The translations under genes were made by a program, and so were the position numbers. The notes below the pieces were generated by a model. It made no database searches and had not been told where the DNA came from. It worked only from the letters and a program-made list of their open reading frames with translations. Below are positions 36,689-48,209 of a stretch of DNA of 64,000 bases, piece after piece. The stretch's first letter is position 1, and every line of letters begins with the position of its first letter. This DNA comes from Candidatus Zixiibacteriota bacterium (GTDB lineage: Bacteria; Zixibacteria; MSB-5A5; GN15; FEB-12), in contig JAHOYZ010000009.1 of assembly GCA_019038695.1 (NCBI GenBank), positions 1-64,000 on the forward strand, in the 5' to 3' direction.

Positions 36689-37999
36689 CTATACGAATTC
36701 AAATCCGGCTTTTTCCCATGAGCGACGATTGAGAATTCCGAAATAGTCTACGACCAGACGTTTCTTCATGAGGCTCGCACAATGGACCGGTTTAAGACGG
36801 CGAAACTGTTTATGGGCAGTACCGATCACCAGAGCCGAAGCTCCCCGAAGTGCCTCATCAAGGTCATGCACCAGCGGCATGTTCCCTTCGAAGACCTTCT
36901 CCGCATTTGGTAGAAGCGGCTCATACAGGCTGACGCGCGCTCCAGAACGCCGCAAACGAATGGCGAGCTTCACTGCGCGAGAGCCACGAGTATCATCAAC
37001 TTCAGGCTTGAACGCCGCTCCGAGAATAGCGATCTTCTTGCGTTTGAGAGGCCGCAAGCGGTTCTTTAGATTCTCCACGAGGTGTTCGAGCAAGCGATCA
37101 TTGATATTCATTGCTGTCTGGGCGGTCTCAAAGGTGAAATTGGTTTCGCTCTCGGCGGAATTGATCAAGCGGCAGTCCTTGGGCAGACAGGATCCCCCGA
37201 ATCCAAGTCCGGGAGTGAAATAGTCCAAACCGATACGCTCATCCAGACCTATCCCCCTTTGAATTGACGACAGATCAAGTTGTTCTATTCGGGCGAAATC
37301 GGTTATTTCATGGATGAACGCCAGCCTGTGAGCTAGGTAGACGTTGGAAGCCAGCTTGATTAGTTCGGCTGATCGAATATCCGTATGAACAATTGGTATG
37401 CTCTGAGAGTAGACTTTATTATAGATTTTCAACAGCCTAGTCGCGTCACGTTTCTCCTTTGATCCCAGAATGATTCGCCAAGGCCTCACCGTATCCTGGT
37501 AGGCACATCCCTCGCGCAGGAACTCCGGATTGACAACTAATCGAACCTTCTCTCCGTGAGGAGTCGATTCAAGCAGTTGTCGGAACTGATCCGCAAAACC
37601 GACTACGTTTGTTGATTTCAGTACTACAGTAGCCACTGTTCGACGGTTGCAGCCACCGATCCAGTTAGCCATCCGCTCAAAAGCGCCCAGTCGCATTTTC
37701 CAGTCACCCCGATTAACCGAGTCAATGGCTATGAAAATCAGATCTGCCTTCTCGTAGGCAATTTTACTGGGCAGGATCGTTCGAAGACGGCTGCTTCTTA
37801 CGGTTTCCCTGAGTGCTCGTGCCAGATCGTTTTCGCGGAAATGAAGCTGACCCTTGTTCAAGCCATCAACGATAATCCTGTTTTTCTCGACTACCGTGAC
37901 CGGAAATCGTTTAGCGGCCAGATGAACGGCTGTGGCTAATCCGACGTATCCGGCTCCGACCACCAGTATGTTTGGCTTCGACGACATATTGGGAATCAT
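36689..37999 (-). CDS. UDP-glucose/GDP-mannose dehydrogenase family protein
   Basis: 436 residues if started at ATG 37999; ATG 37987 is equally possible and the frame is open upstream to 38086. Rossmann motif ILVVGAGYVGLATAVHLA near the start. The catalytic Cys is in LGFGGSCLPKD, with LASNVYLAHRLAFIHEI before it and AFKPEVDDTRGS in the C-terminal domain. These enzymes oxidise the C6 hydroxyl of an NDP-sugar to a carboxylate in two NAD steps. UDP-glucose, UDP-ManNAc or GDP-mannose are all possible substrates. Forms a nucleotide-sugar pair with the epimerase downstream. Confidence 0.93.
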   Translation of the reverse strand: MIPNMSSKPNILVVGAGYVGLATAVHLAAKRFPVTVVEKNRIIVDGLNKGQLHFRENDLARALRETVRSSRLRTILPSKIAYEKADLIFIAIDSVNRGDWKMRLGAFERMANWIGGCNRRTVATVVLKSTNVVGFADQFRQLLESTPHGEKVRLVVNPEFLREGCAYQDTVRPWRIILGSKEKRDATRLLKIYNKVYSQSIPIVHTDIRSAELIKLASNVYLAHRLAFIHEITDFARIEQLDLSSIQRGIGLDERIGLDYFTPGLGFGGSCLPKDCRLINSAESETNFTFETAQTAMNINDRLLEHLVENLKNRLRPLKRKKIAILGAAFKPEVDDTRGSRAVKLAIRLRRSGARVSLYEPLLPNAEKVFEGNMPLVHDLDEALRGASALVIGTAHKQFRRLKPVHCASLMKKRLVVDYFGILNRRSWEKAGFEFV

Positions 38000-38043
38000 T
38001 ATACGCTCTGAGCCGGAAATTGACAAACGATTTGGGAATTTGG

Positions 38044-38961
38044 TCAAGCATCCGGAGCCGCAGCCAACAATTTGCGAGAACCCCAATCGATAAGTTTTCT
38101 TGCTTCGCGGAAACGGAGCTTATCGCCCGGTACGCCCAGCACAACCATTGTCAGACGTTCTCCTCGTTTGTTGCGGATCAGGCTTGTGAGACAGTAGTCA
38201 GCCGCACGTATATAGCCGGTTTTACCGCTCAGTACTTTGTAGGGCGAATGCATGAGCAAATTGGTGTTGGCCATATTGCGCCAGGTGTTTTTGCGATTTT
38301 GGATCTTCACCCGATACCGCTTCATCGACGTAATCTTAGCAATCAACTCATAACGATAAGCATAGTGGAGAATCTTCGCCACTTCACAAGCGGTCGATAC
38401 ATTCGTCGAGTCGAGCCCGGTGGGATCAGTGAATTTGGTTGCCTTCAAGCCGAGCCGTCTCACTTTTCTATTCATCTCCTCGACAAAGGTCTCAATCGAT
38501 CCACTGGTGGCGCGCGCCAGTGCCCGGGTTGCCCGGTTGTCGGAATTCATTAGGGCAGCGTGCATAAGATCATAAAGCGTCAACTCATATCCGCGGTTCA
38601 AACGCGATCGAGACGAGCGATAGGCGTCCTCTTTGGTGATCGTCTCAGTGCGATCCATGTCAACCCCTTTGTCAACAATCACCATCGCGGCCACGAGCTT
38701 GGTTATGGAAGCGACGGGGCGAACGGCATCGGCATTGCGAGCGTAAAGAACCTCGCCGTTTTCATAATTAACCAGTACCGCTGATTTAAGGTTCAGGTAC
38801 GGTCCCTTCTGGACGGTCCTGAAATCGAATTCAATATCAGATCGAAACCCTGCTTCGTCGGTGAAGTGCTCCGCTTCAAGGATGTAGACCGTATTGGCCG
38901 AGAAAAATACAAAAGCGGCCAGCATGATCAGAACCGATGGCAGTGTGTCACGACGTATCAT
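38044..38961 (-). CDS. D-alanyl-D-alanine carboxypeptidase (PBP5/DacA-like)
   Basis: 305 residues from ATG 38961. A membrane anchor or signal sequence covers residues ~8-28. Penicillin-binding motifs are complete: S85-I-T-K88 (SxxK), S140-D-N142 and K247-T-G249. It trims the terminal D-Ala of peptidoglycan stem peptides in the periplasm. It lacks the C-terminal domain and amphipathic anchor helix of E. coli PBP5, so it is held by the N-terminal segment if not cleaved. 20 nt after the ABC permease gene. Confidence 0.93.
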   Translation of the reverse strand: MIRRDTLPSVLIMLAAFVFFSANTVYILEAEHFTDEAGFRSDIEFDFRTVQKGPYLNLKSAVLVNYENGEVLYARNADAVRPVASITKLVAAMVIVDKGVDMDRTETITKEDAYRSSRSRLNRGYELTLYDLMHAALMNSDNRATRALARATSGSIETFVEEMNRKVRRLGLKATKFTDPTGLDSTNVSTACEVAKILHYAYRYELIAKITSMKRYRVKIQNRKNTWRNMANTNLLMHSPYKVLSGKTGYIRAADYCLTSLIRNKRGERLTMVVLGVPGDKLRFREARKLIDWGSRKLLAAAPDA

Positions 38962-38981: not shown

Positions 38982-40292
38982 CTACTGCCGTACCCATTTG
39001 AGAATTTCGGGAAGCGTCGGCCGCTTGCCGTACATGAGGATACCCACCCGAAAAACTTTGCTCGTCAGCCAAATCAGCCCCAGCACTGACAGACATAACA
39101 GAATGAAACCGAGTGTTGCCTCCCCGACAATTCCGCTAAACAGCGAGTATTCGGAAAGAGTTGGCGCTATGAAAACCACGCGCATCAACATCATCGTCGG
39201 AGTAAGAAACGGGATCAAAGAGAGCACCACACTGGCCGCTGAATTGGGGTTCTGAATAACATAAATACCAAGCATGAAGGGCAGGATCATCACCATTGTG
39301 ATCGGCATAATGAAGTTCTGAGCCTCTTTCTCGGTGTTGCAGATCGATCCGATCAGAGCAAACATCGTGGAGAACAGCAAGTAACCGGAGATCAGGAAGA
39401 GCACAAAGAACACTGCAATAGCCGGATTGAACAGGATGCGGTCAATGGAGGGATCAATCTCCAGCGATCCTTTCATGAAATACAGCCCAACCCCCAGCAG
39501 GAACCAGACCGATACCTGCGTAAATGTGGCCGCTCCCAAACCCAATACCTTCCCCAGCATCAACTGGAACGGACTGACCGAGGATACCAGGACTTCCATA
39601 ATACGAGAGTTCTTCTCCTCAATCACCGAACGCATCACCAGTTGGCCAAAGCCGAAAATCATCCCGAACATAATGCCTACAAACATGAGGGCACTGAAAT
39701 ACTTAACCTTGAACGGGATAGCATCTCCTTTGGCATCCTTCTGCATCAGGTCAATATGCCTTGTCAGAGCCAGAACCGAATCCACTTCGAGATTGACCGC
39801 AGATTCCTCAAGTCTGATGCCGGACAGAACTGCGGAAAGGCAAGTACCAAACCGTCTATTGGCACGAAAATTGTCAGCATTGGTGACCATGAAAGACACC
39901 GAGTCCGCATTCTGTGCTTCGTCACCAATGACCACAAAGTACTTTATTTGCTGAGTGTTGATACACTCTACGAGCGAATCGTAGACTATCTGATAGCGCT
40001 CTTCCTCATCAGTTCCGGCCTTGAAAACAGATTGGACTCCATAATACGCGGTAGAATCATCTTCGAGTTTGTAGTATTCGAGGGCTTTTGAAAAATCTGC
40101 CCCTATTTCATGATTGCTCCGGTCGATGACGGCAAGCAATTCCGTCTCCGATGACTTCTTGGTCGCCAGCAAAGTAGGAACGACTGAGAAGGCGAGCATA
40201 AGTAAAGGCGTAAGAACAATGCCAATAATAAATGATTTCTTTTTGACTACCTGCGCATATTCGCGTTTGAAAATGACAAGGAACTTAGACAT
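38982..40292 (-). CDS. ABC-2 type transporter permease (NatB-like)
   Basis: 436 residues from ATG 40292, which has a purine-rich SD (GGAAGGAAGG) and overlaps the ATPase gene by 8 nt. One membrane segment (~20-40) is followed by a large extracytoplasmic region (~45-205) and then five or six membrane helices. NatB/YhaP-like proteins pair with a single ATPase and export Na+, drugs or cell-surface molecules; the substrate is unknown here. Confidence 0.9.
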   Translation of the reverse strand: MSKFLVIFKREYAQVVKKKSFIIGIVLTPLLMLAFSVVPTLLATKKSSETELLAVIDRSNHEIGADFSKALEYYKLEDDSTAYYGVQSVFKAGTDEEERYQIVYDSLVECINTQQIKYFVVIGDEAQNADSVSFMVTNADNFRANRRFGTCLSAVLSGIRLEESAVNLEVDSVLALTRHIDLMQKDAKGDAIPFKVKYFSALMFVGIMFGMIFGFGQLVMRSVIEEKNSRIMEVLVSSVSPFQLMLGKVLGLGAATFTQVSVWFLLGVGLYFMKGSLEIDPSIDRILFNPAIAVFFVLFLISGYLLFSTMFALIGSICNTEKEAQNFIMPITMVMILPFMLGIYVIQNPNSAASVVLSLIPFLTPTMMLMRVVFIAPTLSEYSLFSGIVGEATLGFILLCLSVLGLIWLTSKVFRVGILMYGKRPTLPEILKWVRQ

Positions 40293-41220
40293 TGGTCTTC
40301 CCTTCCTTCCCATCGTCGTACTTTGCAGGGTCGATGTTCGCCATGTCGATAAAGATGTCATACAGCGAAGGCTCGACTACTTCGAAGCGACGTATCGCTA
40401 CCCGATCAGCTACAGCTTTCAGGATAGCCGAGATGTCAGTGCCGCTGTCCACATCCAGTTCCAGATAGTTATTGAACTCGCTCACCTTCTTAACTCCCGG
40501 TAAGGATGCCACAAATCCCCCGTCTCCCTCCATGTCAATCTGAATGGCGTTCTTTCCAAATCGCGCTTTAACATCGGATAGTGTCCCGTCGATCACTTTC
40601 TTGCCTGAAGCGATCATGCAAATGTGATCACACAGTTTCTCCGCCTGTTCCATCACGTGAGTAGAAAAGAGAATCGTCTTGCCAGCTCGCTTCAAATCGA
40701 GAATAACATTTTTTACGAGTTCGATGTTCAGTGGATCCAACCCGGAAAATATCTCATCGAGAATAACAATATCCGGATCGTGTAACAGCGTTGTAATGAA
40801 CTGCAATTTCTGCTGCATTCCCTTTGATAATTCTTCAACCTTACGAGTTTTATAATCCAGAAGCTTCATTCTCTCGAGCCAGTGATCAACATGCTCGCGT
40901 ATATAAGCTGGCGATTTACCTTTCAACTCAGCCATGTACTGCACGACTTCCATCAGGGTCATACTCTTATAGAGTCCACGCTCCTCCGGTAGGTATCCAA
41001 CCCGATTCTTGAAATCGTCGGTTGGTGGAGCTCCGTCAAGTAACACCCGACCCGAATCCGGGATTGTGATATTCATAATCATGCGGATCGTAGTCGTCTT
41101 GCCAGCCCCATTGGGGCCGATAATGCCGTAGATCACTCCTTCCGGGACATCAAGTGACAGATTATCCACTGCCACTTTGCCGTCATATTCTTTACGAATC
41201 GATTCCAGCTGTAGTCTCAT
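40285..41220 (-). CDS. ABC transporter ATP-binding protein (NatA-like)
   Basis: 311 residues. Walker A GPNGAGKTTT (~35), signature LSKGMQQK (~130), Walker B IVILDEIFSGLDP (~155), switch His in LFSTHVMEQAE. The ~90-residue C-terminal extension after the nucleotide-binding domain is typical of the DrrA/NatA subfamily of exporters. Coupled to the permease by an 8-nt overlap. Confidence 0.95.
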   Translation of the reverse strand: MRLQLESIRKEYDGKVAVDNLSLDVPEGVIYGIIGPNGAGKTTTIRMIMNITIPDSGRVLLDGAPPTDDFKNRVGYLPEERGLYKSMTLMEVVQYMAELKGKSPAYIREHVDHWLERMKLLDYKTRKVEELSKGMQQKLQFITTLLHDPDIVILDEIFSGLDPLNIELVKNVILDLKRAGKTILFSTHVMEQAEKLCDHICMIASGKKVIDGTLSDVKARFGKNAIQIDMEGDGGFVASLPGVKKVSEFNNYLELDVDSGTDISAILKAVADRVAIRRFEVVEPSLYDIFIDMANIDPAKYDDGKEGKTNV

Positions 41221-41303
41221 ATGCTCTTTCCTATCATAGTGCTTTCTCTATACTTCGATTTCATGCCCGGCGTCAACTAAAACCACATCGGCGCGAAATC
41301 TAA

Positions 41304-42077
41304 TCATACTTTGAGCAGTCCTTTCATATCGACGGCATTGCCCACCGCTTGTCCAAGATGACAATTGTTAAAAAACACATAGAGGTTCTCAACTTCTCTT
41401 TTCTGTTTCAACTTCTCAATTTTCTTTCCCCAACCCTGCAGTTCCTCGTCGGAGTACTTGTAGTCATAGCGTAATGCTCCTCCGTCCCACCAGTGTTCGG
41501 CATTCCTCCCGTGGAGACGAATGTACGCTGTGTTGGTCGTGGCAAAGCAGTCCGGATCGAGCAATCCGGGCAACGGCGGTTCATCCACACAGACATAACC
41601 AATCCCTTCTGCGCGGAGACGATCGTACATTGTACGGTTCACCCAGCCACGATGGCGGAATTCTACAAACAGTCGATGAGGAGACAGAGCCTGCTGAACG
41701 ATTCCAAGGTAATCGAGAGCTTCAGAACCAAACTTGAATGAATATGGAAACTGCGCCAAGAGACCTGACAGCTTACCGGATTCCACAAGGGGACGTAGTG
41801 CTTCGAGATAAGCGGCTCGATCGTTTTCCAAGTCAGTGCGTCGATGAGTGAATGACTGGGGTACCTTGACTATGAAATCGAATCCATCCGGTGCCTTCTT
41901 TGAAATATTGGCCATCACGGCCGGATGTGGAATACGATAATAAGTTGAGTTGATCTCGACCGTGCGGAAGAACTTCACATAGTGATCAAGCATCTTCCCC
42001 TTGTCAATACTTGCCGGATAGAATCCCCCACGCCAATCTTCAAAACTGTAACCCGATGTTCCGATTCGAATATCCAT
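41304..42077 (-). CDS. DUF72 family protein (YecE-like TIM barrel)
   Basis: 257 residues from ATG 42077; a TTG at 42083 has a better-spaced GGAG and is the alternative. N-terminus IRIGTSGYSFEDWRGGFYPA with VEINSTYYRIP is the DUF72 signature, followed by FIVKVPQSFTHRR and VEFRHRGW. Members adopt a TIM-barrel fold and have no firmly established reaction. It lies alone between the ABC exporter and the unknown membrane cassette. Confidence 0.9.
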   Translation of the reverse strand: MDIRIGTSGYSFEDWRGGFYPASIDKGKMLDHYVKFFRTVEINSTYYRIPHPAVMANISKKAPDGFDFIVKVPQSFTHRRTDLENDRAAYLEALRPLVESGKLSGLLAQFPYSFKFGSEALDYLGIVQQALSPHRLFVEFRHRGWVNRTMYDRLRAEGIGYVCVDEPPLPGLLDPDCFATTNTAYIRLHGRNAEHWWDGGALRYDYKYSDEELQGWGKKIEKLKQKREVENLYVFFNNCHLGQAVGNAVDMKGLLKV

Positions 42078-42172
42078 CGTCAACTGTGATCGACTCCTCT
42101 AGAAAACATATAGTGTAAGTACGTGCTCTTTCCTGAAAGGTTCATCTATTGGCTTACCCGCAAAACAGGTCA

Positions 42173-42346
42173 TTAGTCACGGGATTCGCTGTCATCTTTT
42201 CGGCGCGAGGGTTTTCGGTGGGGCTGAAACCGGACCCGACCACACTTGGGACAAACCCACTTCCGTTGTTTGTGGAAGGAACGCTTTTGCTCCTCCATGG
42301 TCGCCTGGCAGCGGGGACATTTCATCGCCTCGTCACTCGCTTTCAC
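42173..42346 (-). CDS. Tiny zinc-ribbon protein, last gene of the unknown membrane cassette
   Basis: 57 residues from GTG 42346, which overlaps the upstream stop as GTGA; 50 residues if ATG 42325 is used. Neither start has a good SD. Two CXXC knuckles, CPRC near residue 10 and CPKC near 33, about 20 residues apart, suit a single Zn ribbon; the C-terminus is basic and serine-rich with no membrane segment. Such ribbons bind nucleic acid or a protein partner. It is below usual gene-finder size limits, yet the cysteine pattern, stop overlap and operon position support it. Confidence 0.7.
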   Translation of the reverse strand: MKASDEAMKCPRCQATMEEQKRSFHKQRKWVCPKCGRVRFQPHRKPSRRKDDSESRD

Positions 42347-42957
42347 TGAGCCAGTCGAACGAAATCCGACAGCAGGAACTCTACGCGACCGATCAATGTT
42401 GACATCCGTGACATGACAGTGTAGCCAAAGGTAGTACCAAAGAATATCATCAGGAAATACGTCCCTCCCTTGGCAACCCCCCCCAGCACACCTTTATGCT
42501 CACGGCTGAAGTAAAAATAGGCCAACGTTGTGATAACCCCCGTCAGGACTACGATAACCGACCAGTCAGGCTGTCCCGATTCTGAGAGCAAAGGACCGAC
42601 GGTAGCGGTGATCTGTCGAAGTGTGCGGGCTTCGAGCATAGCTGGAATAGCTACGCCGGCACCGGAACCTATCAGGATCGCGATCGGAATACGGGACAAA
42701 GAGGCGGTCCGTTTGTGGAACCGTCCAAACATCATGAGTCCAAGAGCCAGGGGCAGAACCAACGGCCACTTCGCATCTTGAACCAACGGCACGAATAACA
42801 GATCCATCAATGTATTGGACCAGGTTATGACCAGAAAATAACCAATCGAGACGCCGATCAGCAGAGATTCCGCCATTTTGTAGACCGGGTTGTCCCGATA
42901 GAGGAAACTGAAAATTGCCAATGTCAGCAACCCGGCGATGATCACGCTCCAGTCCAT
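42343..42957 (-). CDS. Polytopic membrane protein of unknown function (cassette gene 4)
   Basis: 204 residues with about six predicted membrane helices. The start overlaps the previous stop by 1 nt (TGATG). Visible features: MDWSVIIAGLLTLAIFSFLY at the N-terminus, AESLLIGVSIGYFLVITWSN, WPLVLPLALGLMMFGRF and a late GTTFGYTVMSRMSTLIGRVEFLL. No catalytic motif. The YDNPVYKMAE-like region (FLYRDNPVYKMAESL) lies at a cytoplasmic turn between helices 1 and 2. No named family recognised. Confidence 0.8.
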   Translation of the reverse strand: MDWSVIIAGLLTLAIFSFLYRDNPVYKMAESLLIGVSIGYFLVITWSNTLMDLLFVPLVQDAKWPLVLPLALGLMMFGRFHKRTASLSRIPIAILIGSGAGVAIPAMLEARTLRQITATVGPLLSESGQPDWSVIVVLTGVITTLAYFYFSREHKGVLGGVAKGGTYFLMIFFGTTFGYTVMSRMSTLIGRVEFLLSDFVRLAQ

Positions 42958-43772
42958 CAGGAGGCTGACCCCTTTCTCCGGCGTGTTCGGAAATAGATGA
43001 TGTTACCGGCGATAATCAGCACCATGACGTACACATGCGCTGCCGACTGGGCCAGCATACCGCGTTTGCCGGAACCGCCAATTCCTATGAGCTGTTCATA
43101 TTCCGTTGCTCCGCGAAGTCCGCCAAACATGGCGTACAATTGTCCCGAGGCCAGGTATGGATCATAGGTGGTCATCATAGCCGCTGTCACCGCCGCTACT
43201 ATGCGGATATTGTAACGACTCGCGCCGTATTCGATCCAGTGTGTTGTCAAAGATCCGTCGGCAATTGAAATCACCGCGGCGATGTCGTCATAGTTTTCGA
43301 CGTCAACCAGCATTTCGTAATCCCGATAGGGCTGCCCCAGATAGTCTTCGGGATAGGTATCAGGAATCGACTCCCCCATAGAGAGAATGGCTGCAATGTA
43401 TTGAGGCTTAAAACCAAGATAGACATAATCCTCGCCGTATGTCTTGCCGTATTCGTCGGCAGTCTGAGTCATTAGCCGGTAGCCAACAGCAGTTCCCTCA
43501 GCTAACAGGGCTGTACCGACTAATTTAAGGTCTCGTGAGAACGCATGACGCAACACGGCCAGAGCCAGTGGCCGTATCTCCGGCAACGATGATGCTTCGT
43601 GATCGAAAGAGACTATCACTGTGGCCCCCGCCGGTAATGAATCAAGGCAGGCATAGAACCGGTCTGTCTCCGGCGTAACGCGTACTTCAAGGTTGATATT
43701 GAGAACCATCGTAATGATTACAATTACGAATAGCCCACCAAATATCCAGTGGCGGCTCTCTATTTGTTTCAT
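42957..43772 (-). CDS. Bitopic membrane protein with extracytoplasmic domain (cassette gene 3)
   Basis: 271 residues from ATG 43772 (ATGA overlap with the upstream gene). N-terminal membrane helix ~10-28, a globular extracytoplasmic domain (~30-240), and a C-terminal helix ~243-260 followed by RTRRRKG. The domain contains PAGATVIVSFDHEASSLPE and EDYVYLGFKPQYIAAILSMG, with several acidic DY pairs. No nuclease, protease or sugar-binding motif recognised. Confidence 0.8.
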   Translation of the reverse strand: MKQIESRHWIFGGLFVIVIITMVLNINLEVRVTPETDRFYACLDSLPAGATVIVSFDHEASSLPEIRPLALAVLRHAFSRDLKLVGTALLAEGTAVGYRLMTQTADEYGKTYGEDYVYLGFKPQYIAAILSMGESIPDTYPEDYLGQPYRDYEMLVDVENYDDIAAVISIADGSLTTHWIEYGASRYNIRIVAAVTAAMMTTYDPYLASGQLYAMFGGLRGATEYEQLIGIGGSGKRGMLAQSAAHVYVMVLIIAGNIIYFRTRRRKGSAS

Positions 43773-44392
43773 TTCTCGCCCCCGAGCCACGTGCGTTCGA
43801 TACCTAGTATAACCCGAAGCGAGGTCGTGAGTGACCCCAACCCGATTCCGATCAGAATCGCACGACGAGCAGCCATTGATGGATTTCCGCGCACCCAATC
43901 GGCCGCTTCGGTGAAAAACTGCGGAACGATTCCTTCCAGCGAGGAACGGCTCAGCAAGGTCAATATCGCCGCCGCCAGCAGAACAGCTGCCGGGGCCGAG
44001 CGTGCACGGAAACCACGAAATGAAGCAGATGCCACGAAGAAAGCCAGAAGTGCAAACACTGTCGATTGCATAGGCACCAGAACATATTCAAACATCCACA
44101 TGAAAGGCGAATCCCCTCTAATACCCCAGATAATAGCCAGAACCGGCATACTGCCCAGCCCGATCAGCGAGACTATTCGATACGGGCGGTCATCCCCTTT
44201 GCGGATACTACCCCAGGTCATACGCACAAACCCGAGCACTCCCACCAACAGCGTTATGGCGAAGATAATCTGCCAATAGTCTATCATCACCGTTGCGTTG
44301 AGCTTTCTCGCGGCTGGGTGCTGTGAGAAATAGAGCGCAAACAACAGAGCACCAAAGGCAAAGCAAACGATCTGGGCAATTCGGCGATTCAT
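43769..44392 (-). CDS. Polytopic membrane protein of unknown function (cassette gene 2)
   Basis: 207 residues from ATG 44392, which overlaps the upstream stop by 1 nt (TAATG). About six membrane helices; between helices there is a charged loop SIRKGDDRPYR. It ends ...GIERTWLGGEK. General size and topology resemble cassette gene 4, which may mean the two form a heteromeric membrane unit; sequence identity between them is not obvious by eye. Confidence 0.8.
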   Translation of the reverse strand: MNRRIAQIVCFAFGALLFALYFSQHPAARKLNATVMIDYWQIIFAITLLVGVLGFVRMTWGSIRKGDDRPYRIVSLIGLGSMPVLAIIWGIRGDSPFMWMFEYVLVPMQSTVFALLAFFVASASFRGFRARSAPAAVLLAAAILTLLSRSSLEGIVPQFFTEAADWVRGNPSMAARRAILIGIGLGSLTTSLRVILGIERTWLGGEK

Positions 44393-45198
44393 TAGAACCG
44401 CCACCAGCTTGATGAAGGATCCACTGTTACCCAGAGCGTGGCAATAATCATAATAATAGCCAGCATGACTTTCAAGATGTCCTGCGCTCGTACCGAAGCC
44501 AGGATCGAACGATCACCGGATAGATAGCCAGAGGCGGCGAACAATTCCTCGCCTATAAGAACGTAGTCACAGGCTACTATAAAGAAGGAAAGCTGAATCG
44601 TCGAATCGGTACCGGCGATCTGAATGGAGCCATTGATGTTGGCGGTCTCGGCCAGGATCAGAGACTCTGCCTCAAATGTGCCCAGAAGAAAAACGGAGGC
44701 TGGTTTGGTGCGGCTAATCAAACCCTCCACTGCAGCCGCGTAGCCAAATTGTGAAGAACTTACATAGAAAATATCGTTGGCATTATATCGATCAGGAAAG
44801 CCCGCCTGTACACAGGCCTCCCGTACAACTTCCTGTGCCACCGTCATTATAACGGGATCATGGGTCGGGTAAACGAGGCGGCAATCGTATTGCGCTGTCT
44901 TCCGGGCAACATGACTCAGGATGTTCATTGAGGCGATAGTGGTTGGTCGCTGAATATCCCCCCCCCACCCGGGCGTAAAGAGTAAGGGGCGTCCCATTTC
45001 CGTAGCACGACCGATGGCTTCTTCGACCGCTTTCAGTCCAGCGATCTCACGCAGTTTGAAACGCTGCCTGCTCCGCTTATGAAAAGTCGTATACAGTACC
45101 ACCAGGACCGAGATAATTGCCGCTACCAGAGTTGGCAACCGGGCCATGTCGAACCATGATGGATCGAGGACGGTACCTATTATGACGATGGCTCCCAT
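44392..45198 (-). CDS. DUF6754-type membrane protein (first gene of unknown cassette)
   Basis: 268 residues from ATG 45198, with no strong SD; the frame is open upstream. One N-terminal membrane helix (~20-38), then a soluble alpha/beta domain (~45-235), then a C-terminal helix (~240-260). Conserved-looking motifs are EEAIGRATEMGRPLLFTPG, SSSQFGYAAAVEGLI, GTFEAESLILAE and CDYVLIGEELFAASGYLS. The pattern fits DUF6754, from memory of that family; no reaction is known. A G9 tract (minus strand) lies in the PGWGGD motif. Divergent from the ABC importer across a 121-nt gap. Confidence 0.75.
   Translation of the reverse strand: MGAIVIIGTVLDPSWFDMARLPTLVAAIISVLVVLYTTFHKRSRQRFKLREIAGLKAVEEAIGRATEMGRPLLFTPGWGGDIQRPTTIASMNILSHVARKTAQYDCRLVYPTHDPVIMTVAQEVVREACVQAGFPDRYNANDIFYVSSSQFGYAAAVEGLISRTKPASVFLLGTFEAESLILAETANINGSIQIAGTDSTIQLSFFIVACDYVLIGEELFAASGYLSGDRSILASVRAQDILKVMLAIIMIIATLWVTVDPSSSWWRF
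44958..44966 (-). repeat. 9-nt G homopolymer inside the DUF6754 gene
   Basis: Nine consecutive C on the plus strand (G on the coding strand), encoding the W-G-G of PGWGGD. Tracts of this length are slippage-prone in phase-variable genes. The frame is intact as given. Confidence 0.9.
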
Positions 45199-45283
45199 AT
45201 TGTTGCAAGGAAAACGCTTGATGTTGTTACGGGCAACTAAAAGATTTTGATTGACCGGATGATAAGAGACGAACTTCTTGTCA

Positions 45284-45289
45284 TATAAT
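45284..45289 (+). promoter_or_regulatory. -10 element for the ABC importer operon
   Basis: A consensus TATAAT lies 36 nt upstream of the GTG start at 45320. No good -35 box at 17 nt spacing, so it may need an activator, as is usual for sugar importers. Confidence 0.45.
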
Positions 45290-45319
45290 AAGAGTGAACG
45301 AAACCAAGGGAGTCGCCCT

Positions 45320-46525
45320 GTGAAATTTGTAGTATTCCTATTTTTAATTCTTGTTGCCGCTAATGTTACCGCTGATACGACTCTGCGATGGTGGCAATTC
45401 TGGACCGACCCGGCTATCAAACCAACGATCGAGACAATTGTTGACGAATTCGAACAGGCTAATCCGGGTATCAACGTTGAGTTGACCGATCTCACCTGGG
45501 CCAACGGTCACGAAAAAATTGTCCTATCGCTGGCGTCCGGCACGGGACCGGATGTTCTGGAACTCGGATCTGACTGGATAGCTCAGTTTGCTGCCAATGG
45601 CCATCTGGCTGATATTTCGTCAATGATCGCTGACGACAGTTCTGCTTTCCAGGGCTGGAGTATGGCTGACTACGACGACAAGATATACGCCTTCCCATGG
45701 ATACTTGGCACGCGGGTTCTGTTTGCTAACCGGGAGTTGCTGACTCGGGCAGGGTATGATCCTGATTTTGTACCGGTGACGTGGGACGATCTGAAGCAAT
45801 CCGCAGCGGCCGTATCCGCTCTCGGTTCCGGTGTCTACGGCTGGGGATCAAATGCGGCCGAGAAGCACCGTCTGTACAAGAAGTTTCTACCGTTCTTTTG
45901 GTCAGCGCAGGGTCAGATATTCAGCGATAATGGACAGCACTGCGTACTTGCGTCCACCTACGCAATTGACGCGCTACAAACCTACAAAGATCTGCATGAC
46001 TCTTCTGGCTATGTCGCCAATCAGCGAGGCATTGAGGATGCTTTCCTTGAAGGCAAGGTCGGCTTTGTTCTTTCGGGTGATTGGCTGCTAAAGCGGATTG
46101 AACTTGAAAAACACAAGATTGATCTGGTCTCAACCTTGATGCCCGGTCCGACCTTTATTGGTCGGTCTTTCATGGGTGGCGAATTCCTGGCCGTTACCGA
46201 AGCCTCCGAGCAAAAAGAAGCGGCTATGAAGCTGATCCGGTTTGTGACGTCTCCGAAGAATCAGGTTCGCTTCTGCAAGGCAAATCGTTCGGCTAATCCA
46301 TCCAGTATTGTAGCTCAGACGGATGAATACTTCAGTTCCAATATACATCTGCAAACGTTCATCAAGCAGATCCCGATGAGCAATCATCCGCCCGTTGACC
46401 CCGACTGGGTGTTCATTGAAAACATTATCGAGGAAGCTATCGAGGAATCCCTGTTTGAATCGGGTGGAGTAGCGGAGCCGCTTCGCAAGGCTCGAGGTAA
46501 GATTGCGAAGCTGAAAAGCCAATGA
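45320..46525 (+). CDS. Sugar-type ABC transporter substrate-binding protein (family 1)
   Basis: 401 residues from GTG 45320, chosen for GGGAG 7 nt upstream and because it opens directly into a signal peptide (VKFVVFLFLILVAANVTA). Cluster-B/family 1 features: RWWQFWTDPAIKPTIETIVDEF, SGTGPDVLELG and FPWILGTRVLFANRELL. No lipobox Cys, so it should be soluble in the periplasm. It binds a sugar, oligosaccharide or glycerol-phosphate-like ligand. The stop overlaps the first permease by 4 nt. Confidence 0.92.
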   Translation: MKFVVFLFLILVAANVTADTTLRWWQFWTDPAIKPTIETIVDEFEQANPGINVELTDLTWANGHEKIVLSLASGTGPDVLELGSDWIAQFAANGHLADISSMIADDSSAFQGWSMADYDDKIYAFPWILGTRVLFANRELLTRAGYDPDFVPVTWDDLKQSAAAVSALGSGVYGWGSNAAEKHRLYKKFLPFFWSAQGQIFSDNGQHCVLASTYAIDALQTYKDLHDSSGYVANQRGIEDAFLEGKVGFVLSGDWLLKRIELEKHKIDLVSTLMPGPTFIGRSFMGGEFLAVTEASEQKEAAMKLIRFVTSPKNQVRFCKANRSANPSSIVAQTDEYFSSNIHLQTFIKQIPMSNHPPVDPDWVFIENIIEEAIEESLFESGGVAEPLRKARGKIAKLKSQ

Positions 46526-47394
46526 AGCGTTCGCGTCTGATCGGTCTTTTGCTTCTTCTCCCCTGGCTGATTACATTTCTGGTGTTTTGGTTTTTTCCGT
46601 TGGTCTTCTCGTTGTTGGCCGGGTTCACTGATTACAGTCTTTTGTCGCGTGCCGGTATGGAATGGATCGGCTGGGACAACTACCGGGGGCTGTTGGCCGA
46701 CGAAGATTTTCACTCCGCCCTCAAGAACACCTTTATCTTCGTCATAGGTTCTGTGCCGGTAACGACGGTACTAGCCCTCTTGATGGCTTTGCTGGTCAGT
46801 CGTCGTTTACCCGGGAGGTCCCTGTTTCGGGCGGGGTTCTTCCTGCCTTCTATCACGTCGATGGTCGTTATCGCGTTGATCTTCACCAACCTCTATCAGA
46901 GAGGCGGGTATGTGGCCACACTGGCTACGATGATCGGTTTTGTCCCCCCCGAGCATGGTTTCCTGTACTCCAGTTCGACCGCCCTCTACTCGATCATGGC
47001 TATGGATATTTGGATGTCGGTGGGCTACTATATGCTAATCTTTCTGGCCGGTCTCAAAGCTATTCCAATAGAACTGTACGAGGCCGCCCGCATTCAGGGT
47101 GCCTCTTCTACCCGCCAATTCTTCTCTATCACTCTACCACTCCTGAGACCGGTAGCGCTGTTTATCGTGGTCATCAATTCGATCAAGTCCTTCCAGGTAT
47201 TTGTCGAGATATTCGTGATGACCAAGGGAAAGTTCGACACCGCCTCAATGGTCTACTTCATTTATGATGTCGGTGTCACAACCGCTTTCCAGTTTGGCTA
47301 CGCCTCAGCCGCTGCCTATGTACTCTTTCTGATCGTGGCTGCTTTTGCGGCTTTACAATTCCTGCTCCTGCGAAGGAGACAGCCAATATGGTAA
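46522..47394 (+). CDS. ABC transporter permease, MalF/UgpA type
   Basis: 290 residues, six membrane helices. EAA motif region EAARIQGASSTRQFFSITLPLLRP couples to the ATPase. It forms a heterodimer with the next gene, which it overlaps by 7 nt. Confidence 0.93.
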   Translation: MKRSRLIGLLLLLPWLITFLVFWFFPLVFSLLAGFTDYSLLSRAGMEWIGWDNYRGLLADEDFHSALKNTFIFVIGSVPVTTVLALLMALLVSRRLPGRSLFRAGFFLPSITSMVVIALIFTNLYQRGGYVATLATMIGFVPPEHGFLYSSSTALYSIMAMDIWMSVGYYMLIFLAGLKAIPIELYEAARIQGASSTRQFFSITLPLLRPVALFIVVINSIKSFQVFVEIFVMTKGKFDTASMVYFIYDVGVTTAFQFGYASAAAYVLFLIVAAFAALQFLLLRRRQPIW

Positions 47395-48209
47395 CCAATC
47401 GGATTCATCTCGTATTGCGCTATGTTGGTCTGTCTGCTGTTCTGGCAGTGATGGTGTTTCCCATCCTGTGGATGTTCCGCGTTTCACTCATGCCGGCCGG
47501 TGCGGCCGTAGGATTTGGTGATCTCTTCTCGACCGGTGTTACACTGACGAATTTCATCGACCTTTTCCGTCAGGCAAGTATTGGTCGTTTTCTCTTCAAT
47601 TCCGTGCTGGTAGCTGTTGTAGTGACTGTCGCCAATGCCTTCTTCTGCTTCATGGTCGCCTATGCTCTTGCGCGCTACCGGGGACTGGCTGGAAGAATAA
47701 TGTTCGTGACCGTGATTGTAGTCCTGATGATTCCGGCACATATCCTGATTGTACCGCTTTATGTCCTCATGCTCAAGATGGGGATGTATGATACCTATTG
47801 GGCGCTCATGCTTCCCTGGTTAGTGAACCCGATTGGTATTTTTCTTGTTAAGCAGTATCTGGAATCCATACCGCCAGACATGGAAGATGCTGCCCGTATT
47901 GACGGTGCCGGCGAGCTGACGATTCTCTTTCGTATCGTTATGCCGCTGTGCAAACCGGCGCTGGCGGTTCTGGCTATACAGGTGTTCTTCACAAATTGGA
48001 ATCTGTTCCTCTTTCCATATATCCTAACTTCGAGCGAGTCACTTCGCACTCTACCGGTCGCTCTGGCGCATTTTCAGGGACACCAGGCTATTGACTGGCA
48101 GCACCTGATGGCTGGATCGGCAGTGGCGGTGATACCGGTACTCATTGCTTTTGGCTTTCTTCAGAGACATATCGTCTCCGGTATTACGGCTGGCGCAGTG
48201 AAGCAGTAG
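47388..48209 (+). CDS. ABC transporter permease, MalG/UgpE type
   Basis: 273 residues, six membrane helices. EAA motif EDAARIDGAGELTILFRIVMP near residue 165. Second half of the membrane channel of the importer. No ATP-binding subunit gene follows; a shared MsmK/UgpC-like ATPase must be encoded elsewhere. Confidence 0.93.
   Translation: MVTNRIHLVLRYVGLSAVLAVMVFPILWMFRVSLMPAGAAVGFGDLFSTGVTLTNFIDLFRQASIGRFLFNSVLVAVVVTVANAFFCFMVAYALARYRGLAGRIMFVTVIVVLMIPAHILIVPLYVLMLKMGMYDTYWALMLPWLVNPIGIFLVKQYLESIPPDMEDAARIDGAGELTILFRIVMPLCKPALAVLAIQVFFTNWNLFLFPYILTSSESLRTLPVALAHFQGHQAIDWQHLMAGSAVAVIPVLIAFGFLQRHIVSGITAGAVKQ

Follow-up and report, generated by a model that had tools for sequence, protein, structure and literature searches.

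A 64,000-nucleotide stretch of a Candidatus Zixiibacteriota genome (assembly GCA_019038695.1, contig JAHOYZ010000009.1; hereafter the window) carries on its minus strand a run of membrane-protein genes built around a DUF6754 protein. We found that four of these genes, denoted A, B, C, and D, recur in the same order in many bacterial phyla and are inherited as a unit, and that in many phyla the genes S, M, and K, with T before them, directly precede A. We propose, at a probability of about 0.5, that ABCD is the membrane half and M/K/S/T the ATPase half of a single T-S-M-K-A-B-C-D system, probably with a task in the cell envelope. The first-pass annotation, which was made from the letters of the window, had seen a single five-gene membrane cassette; what changes that picture most is the existence of paralogous cassettes, their conservation across the phylum, and the M/K/S/T partners.

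A, B, C, and D descend as one unit

The host is a metagenome-assembled genome (MAG) of 3.28 Mb in 58 contigs, and the window lies on contig C9. The genes of the window cassette are as follows (aa, amino acids; TM, transmembrane):

44392-45198, minus strand: gene A, DUF6754 protein (PF20539), 268 aa, ATG start
43769-44392, minus strand: gene B, six-TM protein without a known family, 207 aa
42957-43772, minus strand: gene C, TM-domain-TM protein without a known family, 271 aa
42343-42957, minus strand: gene D, approximately six-TM protein without a known family, 204 aa
42173-42346, minus strand: gene E, zinc ribbon, accessory, 57 aa, GTG start

These coordinates and the junction sequences agree with the first-pass description of five minus-strand genes overlapping by 1 nucleotide (nt) at A/B (TAATG), 4 nt at B/C (ATGA), 1 nt at C/D (TGATG), and 4 nt at D/E (GTGA). 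Its naming of A was also correct: A is a full-length DUF6754 protein, matching PF20539 with an E-value of 8.8e-99 (330.2 bits against a cut-off of 27; profile positions 3-249 of 257). Pfam scans returned no family above its cut-off for B, C, or D, in line with the earlier statement that no motif of a transporter, protease, nuclease, or synthase can be seen in any member, and E gave weak zinc-ribbon matches only. Searching the PDB by sequence gave no noteworthy relative for any of the four proteins A-D.

The host genome encodes five DUF6754 genes, each followed by homologs of B, C, and D in constant order: three cassettes stand in tandem on contig C7, one on C37, and one in the window, which is the most diverged of the five by DUF6754 score. 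DUF6754 was present in all 132 genomes examined from the host phylum, most of which carry four to six copies. The closest relatives by A among the matches listed, at 80-84% identity, come from Zixiibacteriota, and relatives at about 60-70% identity were found in at least the Planctomycetota, Gemmatimonadetes, Fermentibacteria/Aegiribacteria, Neomarinimicrobiota, Eisenbacteria, Latescibacterota, Cloacimonadota, Stahlbacteria, WOR-3, and others. This spread is a lower bound, and the phyla are those given in MAG record titles, which can be wrong. Among 31 genomes titled as lying outside the phylum, most had one or two DUF6754 copies, with a maximum of six; 14 of 14 well-known control genomes had none.

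The A-B-C-D order was kept in Planctomycetota, Gemmatimonadota, Fermentibacterota, WOR-3, Neomarinimicrobiota, and other groups. Across 78 loci it was nearly universal wherever contig ends and a simple gene picker let the order show, and in 50 loci, chosen partly for complete cassettes, B, C, and D followed 79 of 80 A genes. The gene cluster is thus more than a chance arrangement, as its order is found five times in one genome and across many phyla. When trees of A, B, C, and D were built from 79 cassettes, a clade of 21 window-type members was recovered in each (support 0.994-1.0), and the tandem types c1, c2, and c3 formed clades in most, though not all, of the four gene trees. The distance matrices of the four proteins were also correlated (pairwise r 0.77-0.89), and for each pair none of the 500 permutations gave so high a value. 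Because the trees are congruent and the matrices correlated, we conclude that the cassettes duplicate and descend as units. The earlier claim that A-B-C-D is one unit is upheld by the order across phyla, the congruent trees, and the duplication of whole cassettes. The overlaps had also been taken to imply stoichiometric translation, which they do not establish, and many relatives have short intergenic gaps where the window cassette has overlaps.

Several arrangements stood out among the loci. One planctomycete locus (L147, 6940-8639) carries a pair of consecutive DUF6754 genes ahead of a single B-C-D set, which suggests an A-A arrangement. Many Zixiibacteriota loci have, behind the tandem cassettes, a gene resembling pyruvate phosphate dikinase (L006, 4371-7268; L044, L058, L062, L074, L081, L099). 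The C37 cassette is preceded by a DUF4097 (Toastrack) protein and followed by nucleotidyltransferase-like and MetK-like genes (L008, 174-2147).

Topology and predicted folds of A-D

Hydropathy analysis assigned a TM-domain-TM layout to A and C and six TM helices to B; this much of the first-pass topology held, and D, also described there as a six-helix protein, shows four helices in its single sequence and six in the family mean. The N-terminus of B is predicted by charge to lie inside. Judged from its charges, the domain of A is clearly placed in the cytosol, because basic residues cluster at its membrane ends. The N- and C-terminal ends of C are basic, and its domain is predicted to be probably extracytoplasmic. 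The alternation of bitopic and polytopic proteins noted at first reading is thereby borne out, and a soluble domain is placed inside and (by charge bias) another outside.

Confident AlphaFold models of A (predicted local distance difference test, pLDDT, 90.3; alignment of 68 sequences) and C (pLDDT 95.3; 78 sequences) each show a six-stranded alpha/beta domain between two membrane helices. Foldseek found no strong relative in the PDB (best E-values 1.9e-3 for A and 5.4e-4 for C). With VIA-align, the best match for A was Sir2Af2 (Z 11.3, 3.8 A over 144) and for C the CODH epsilon subunit (Z 10.3, 3.1 A over 145), which also matched A with Z 9.6; RCK gating domains were among the matches of A as well (MthK, Z 9.7, 2.7 A over 113 residues). 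In these models both domains are Rossmann-like, a fold that names no function, and the fold search named no family for either domain among the families it lists. The general fold of A and C resembles that of DHS-like/RCK Rossmannoid domains (Sir2, transhydrogenase dIII, CODH epsilon, the RCK domain of MthK), with no sequence similarity, and Z-scores of such size are common among Rossmann-like folds. For A and C as putative DHS-like NAD/FAD-binding domains, the fold similarity amounts to Z 10-11, with weak Foldseek matches. We also considered, and dropped, sequence homology between the A and C domains: hhalign gave a probability of 7 for the full profiles, from the TM segments only, and 0.4 for the domains, which did not exceed the controls. 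A and C share only a general fold, with no sequence relationship.

Probable partner genes T, S, M, and K

In many phyla, S-M-K lie directly before ABCD and T lies before S, giving the order T-S-M-K-A-B-C-D. T has two TM helices and S is small and soluble. M, of about 620 aa, matches MutL (PF13941) over the whole profile (E-values of about 1e-128 to 6e-128) and keeps the ASKHA phosphate motifs DCGSTTTK and DIGGATTD; because these motifs are kept, M is probably an active ATPase, as read from its sequence. M scored below the NF040745 GlmL equivalog cut-off (238.6 against 475 bits) and under the cut-off of every NCBIfam GlmL model. K is a soluble protein of 375 aa with a weak biotin/lipoyl-like match and a KOW-like part, for which PDB sequence matches reached E-values of 0.08-0.12 only, to the RNA polymerase beta' barrel and the SPT5 KOW domain. 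Pfam scans gave no family above its cut-off for K, S, or T.

In the host, M and K each occur once, on contig C34 with one gene (V) between them, and S and T also occur once each, side by side on C7; S and T were looked for in the host and in the examined loci. Across the phylum, M was found in 123 of 132 genomes and K likewise in 123, nearly always once. In 119 sampled genomes of Planctomycetota (the phylum of locus L113), A was present in 31 and K in 27, and all 27 genomes with K had A (hypergeometric 8e-23, kinship ignored), even though K is not adjacent to A in 10 of the 27. In a Neomarinimicrobiota record (L097), M and K are one polypeptide, and frames of a length similar to this fusion occur in L057 and L067. 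Taken together, these observations argue that M, K, S, and T are quite likely partners of ABCD. Some Zixiibacteriota also encode, away from ABCD, another protein, roughly 940 aa long, in which a MutL domain is fused to a diverged K-like region (L154, 5965-8808; L156, 6006-8825; L158, 4451-7234), with a DUF2118 match in L156.

Other identities were tried and set aside. A reading as an anti-phage defense system was dropped, as PADLOC models gave no match for A-D, M, K, S, or T; E showed a weak zinc-ribbon match to Cas12f (E-value 0.0024). An STT3 identity for B was rejected because the NCBIfam match (E-value 0.0049) fell far under its cut-off, and a viral origin because no relative was found on viral contigs. 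An apparent fusion of a 795-aa A protein (L142) to a signal-peptide-peptidase-like region was discarded for a run of masked bases inside it.

Ton and Tol genes near the module

In four of about ten lineages, namely Fermentibacterota, WOR-3/Stahlbacteria, Zixiibacteriota, and a planctomycete titled Gimesia, genes for ExbB/ExbD/TonB or TolQ/R are found close to ABCD or to M-K. In the host (L119 on C34, 8054-15625), M, V (252 aa, secreted/TM), and K are followed by genes for TolQ, TolR, a TolA/TonB-like protein, and TolB; the best NCBIfam matches here were tolQ, tolR, and tolB, the last above its cut-off. Pfam and NCBIfam scans found no ExbB/TolQ or ExbD/TolR domain in A-E themselves. We regard the link to Ton/Tol as suggestive. 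In two WOR-3/Stahlbacteria loci (L116, 12823-20735; L115, 3037-10946), the genes after ABCD encode a DUF4388 protein, two soluble proteins, two small TM proteins, ExbB, two ExbD proteins, TonB, a lipoprotein-like product, and a TonB-dependent receptor.

The window subtype, gene E, and neighboring genes

At the cut-off used, 74 of the phylum's 132 genomes carry one ortholog of the window A gene. Twenty orthologous loci were examined, in which the arrangement is kept, flanked on one side by a divergent ABC importer of the sugar type; in most loci that reach far enough, D is followed by DUF72 and then an ABC ATPase. E directly follows D in 14 of the 19 loci that could be assessed (L120 ends too early) and has a CPRC...CPKC pattern and the family signature KRSFHKQRKWVCPKCGxVRFQ. 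It was not found in the other five, and the four remaining cassettes of the host have no homolog of E. E is a real but optional accessory of the window subtype. The tabulation of neighborhoods thus revises the idea of a five-gene core: the A-B-C-D order recurs across phyla, and E is not part of the conserved set. The conserved run of this subtype extends into DUF72, the ABC ATPase, and an ABC-2 permease. The neighboring features in the window are:

41304-42083, minus strand: DUF72 protein (PF01904, E-value 9.8e-61), conserved downstream neighbor by synteny
40285-41220, minus strand: ABC transporter ATPase (Walker A GPNGAGKTT, Walker B LDE), conserved downstream neighbor by synteny
38982-40361, minus strand: putative ABC-2-type permease frame beside the ABC ATPase, start uncertain, from sequence reading
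45199-45277: divergent intergenic region of 79 bp between A and the sugar ABC importer, candidate shared promoter region, from gene coordinates and the divergence kept in orthologous loci
45278-46525, plus strand: sugar-type ABC solute-binding protein (PF01547, E-value 1.1e-40), divergent conserved neighbor by synteny
46522-47394, plus strand: ABC importer permease, divergent conserved neighbor, from sequence reading and synteny
47388-48209, plus strand: second ABC importer permease, divergent conserved neighbor, from sequence reading and synteny

The ABC importer (45278-48209) and the DUF72-ABC ATPase-ABC-2 permease run (38982-42083) are conserved neighbors in nearly all orthologous loci. Pfam and NCBIfam scans found no ABC ATPase or permease domain in A-D, and the nearby ABC genes are separate neighbors. 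A promoter scan gave more consensus matches than shuffled sequences, though such matches are uninterpretable in the host phylum, and aligning the divergent regions across loci, where stretches matched poorly, revealed no motif. A gene of the UDP-glucose/GDP-mannose dehydrogenase family lies at 36689-38086 of the window.

A proposed mechanism and its alternatives

In the mechanism that we propose, A, B, C, and D would assemble in the inner membrane into a single complex totaling about 16 helices, the domain of A lying in the cytosol and that of C outside; that the four proteins make up a single membrane complex is, we think, very probable. M and K would make up a cytosolic module that depends on ATP, docks on ABCD, most plausibly at the nearly invariant cytosolic face of A (GRATEMG, GEELFAASAYL), and drives or resets the complex. 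Where ABCD is single-copy, all parts are often encoded in one operon. In the host phylum, one M/K/S/T set would serve four to six ABCD cassettes that diverged for different tasks, and we consider such a shared module somewhat better than an even bet. The general task would probably lie in the cell envelope, as transport or energization; its coupling to Ton/Tol-type energization is a tentative suggestion, to which we give a little over one chance in three. The window copy may be tied to the sugar ABC importer and the ABC exporter, although a link to sugars is doubtful. At its most far-reaching, and improbably in our estimate, the T-S-M-K-A-B-C-D system would be an unrecognized class of trans-envelope machine, in which an ASKHA ATPase acts through an adaptor to power or gate a 16-helix complex that bears a Rossmann-like domain at each face; a single ATPase set would serve several task-specific modules, together with Ton/Tol energization.

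Several points weigh against this proposal. Co-occurrence and operon structure are no proof of contact, and the placement of the C domain outside depends entirely on charge bias. Most loci of Planctomycetota, Gemmatimonadota, and Latescibacterota have no Ton/Tol genes nearby, and the adjacency seen elsewhere could be chance. ASKHA ATPases, moreover, are commonly chaperones or activators and less often pumps.

The alternative that survives best, at odds we put near one in four, is that ABCD is itself a transporter, either importer or exporter, whose five paralogs differ in substrate, with the window copy handling compounds related to the flanking ABC systems. Two polytopic proteins per module, the several paralogs, the conserved neighborhood peculiar to the window type, and the sugar ABC genes that adjoin it in nearly all orthologous loci are consistent with this, as are the invariant polar residues H246 and N257 within the second TM helix of C. 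On the other hand, B and D match no transporter family, the large alpha/beta domains of A and C are unlike those of known transporters, and the other cassette types have no common transporter neighbors in the loci seen.

It is also conceivable, though unlikely, that ABCD is a signaling or sensing complex, in which an FN3-like ectodomain of A would detect an external cue, a nucleotide or small ligand would bind to the Rossmann-like domains, and M/K would respond; a sensor domain had also been suggested at first reading. The extracytoplasmic part of A, which looks FN3-like by eye and is not called by Pfam, ranges from none to about 750 aa across relatives while the DUF6754 domain is nearly fixed, as a sensor might; the likeness of A to the RCK gating domain of MthK and the DUF4388 gene after ABCD in WOR-3 point the same way. 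However, the window copy of A has no ectodomain, partners with kinase, receiver, GGDEF, or HTH domains are not recurrent in the loci seen, and presence throughout the phylum better suits a housekeeping machine.

An assembly or quality-control machine formed by ABCD with M/K seems to us equally unlikely. Here M would chaperone or reactivate other proteins at the expense of ATP, in a GlmL-like way, and the membrane part would handle envelope proteins such as outer-membrane or Tol/TonB components. Membership of M in the MutL/GlmL family and the adjacent Ton/Tol genes in four lineages favor this reading, but M scores well under the curated GlmL cut-off, no mutase genes were seen beside M, and the client protein has no candidate. 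Finally, a gene order that was frozen by chance as the operon was inherited, with A, B, C, and D acting separately, is very improbable: operon order can last through regulation alone, but the order holds across many phyla, whole cassettes are duplicated with congruent trees, and K co-occurs with A even where the two are unlinked.

Relation to known systems and significance

The proposed T-S-M-K-A-B-C-D system resembles several described ones in part. The Pfam entry for DUF6754 describes one domain of unknown function, which we find here within a four-gene membrane module with four partner genes. M resembles GlmL/MutL (PF13941, NF040745) in its whole-profile match and ASKHA nucleotide motifs; unlike those proteins, it is about 150 residues longer, adjoins membrane genes, and has no glutamate mutase genes in view beside it. 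Tol-Pal and TonB-ExbB-ExbD are, like ABCD, inner-membrane multi-protein modules, whose Exb/Tol genes adjoin ours in four lineages; unlike them, A-D each have a different architecture and match no ExbB, ExbD, TolA, or TonB in the Pfam and NCBIfam scans. In energy-coupling factor (ECF) transporters, an energizing module is shared among several membrane modules. By analogy, a single cytosolic ATPase set would here serve several membrane modules, as opposed to a dedicated set for a single-copy module; unlike ECF transporters, ABCD has no ABC ATPase or ECF component, and M is of the actin-like ASKHA type.

None of DUF6754, PF20539, PF13941, and the GlmL phrases sought appears in the literature searched, whose scope left out subscription papers and preprints, and we know of no described system with the T-S-M-K-A-B-C-D composition. 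Because B, C, D, K, S, and T give no Pfam family above its cut-off, A is a DUF, and that literature is silent on DUF6754, the system would appear to be new, with the caution that M comes from a known ATPase family and that the function is a proposed one.

ABCD is carried by every examined genome of the phylum, most of the well-assembled ones having four to six diverged copies, and is common to many other phyla at about 60-70% identity in the core domain, which points to a likely basic role in mostly uncultured bacteria. If it is true, the link to a MutL-type ATPase would give the MutL family a role at the membrane. Some hosts are Planctomycetota, a phylum in which the function could be tested in cultured species that are genetically tractable and have a single-copy operon. 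Because it is present in every examined genome of the phylum and travels with its own ATPase across phyla, ABCD is probably a basic machine of the cell envelope that has so far gone undescribed.

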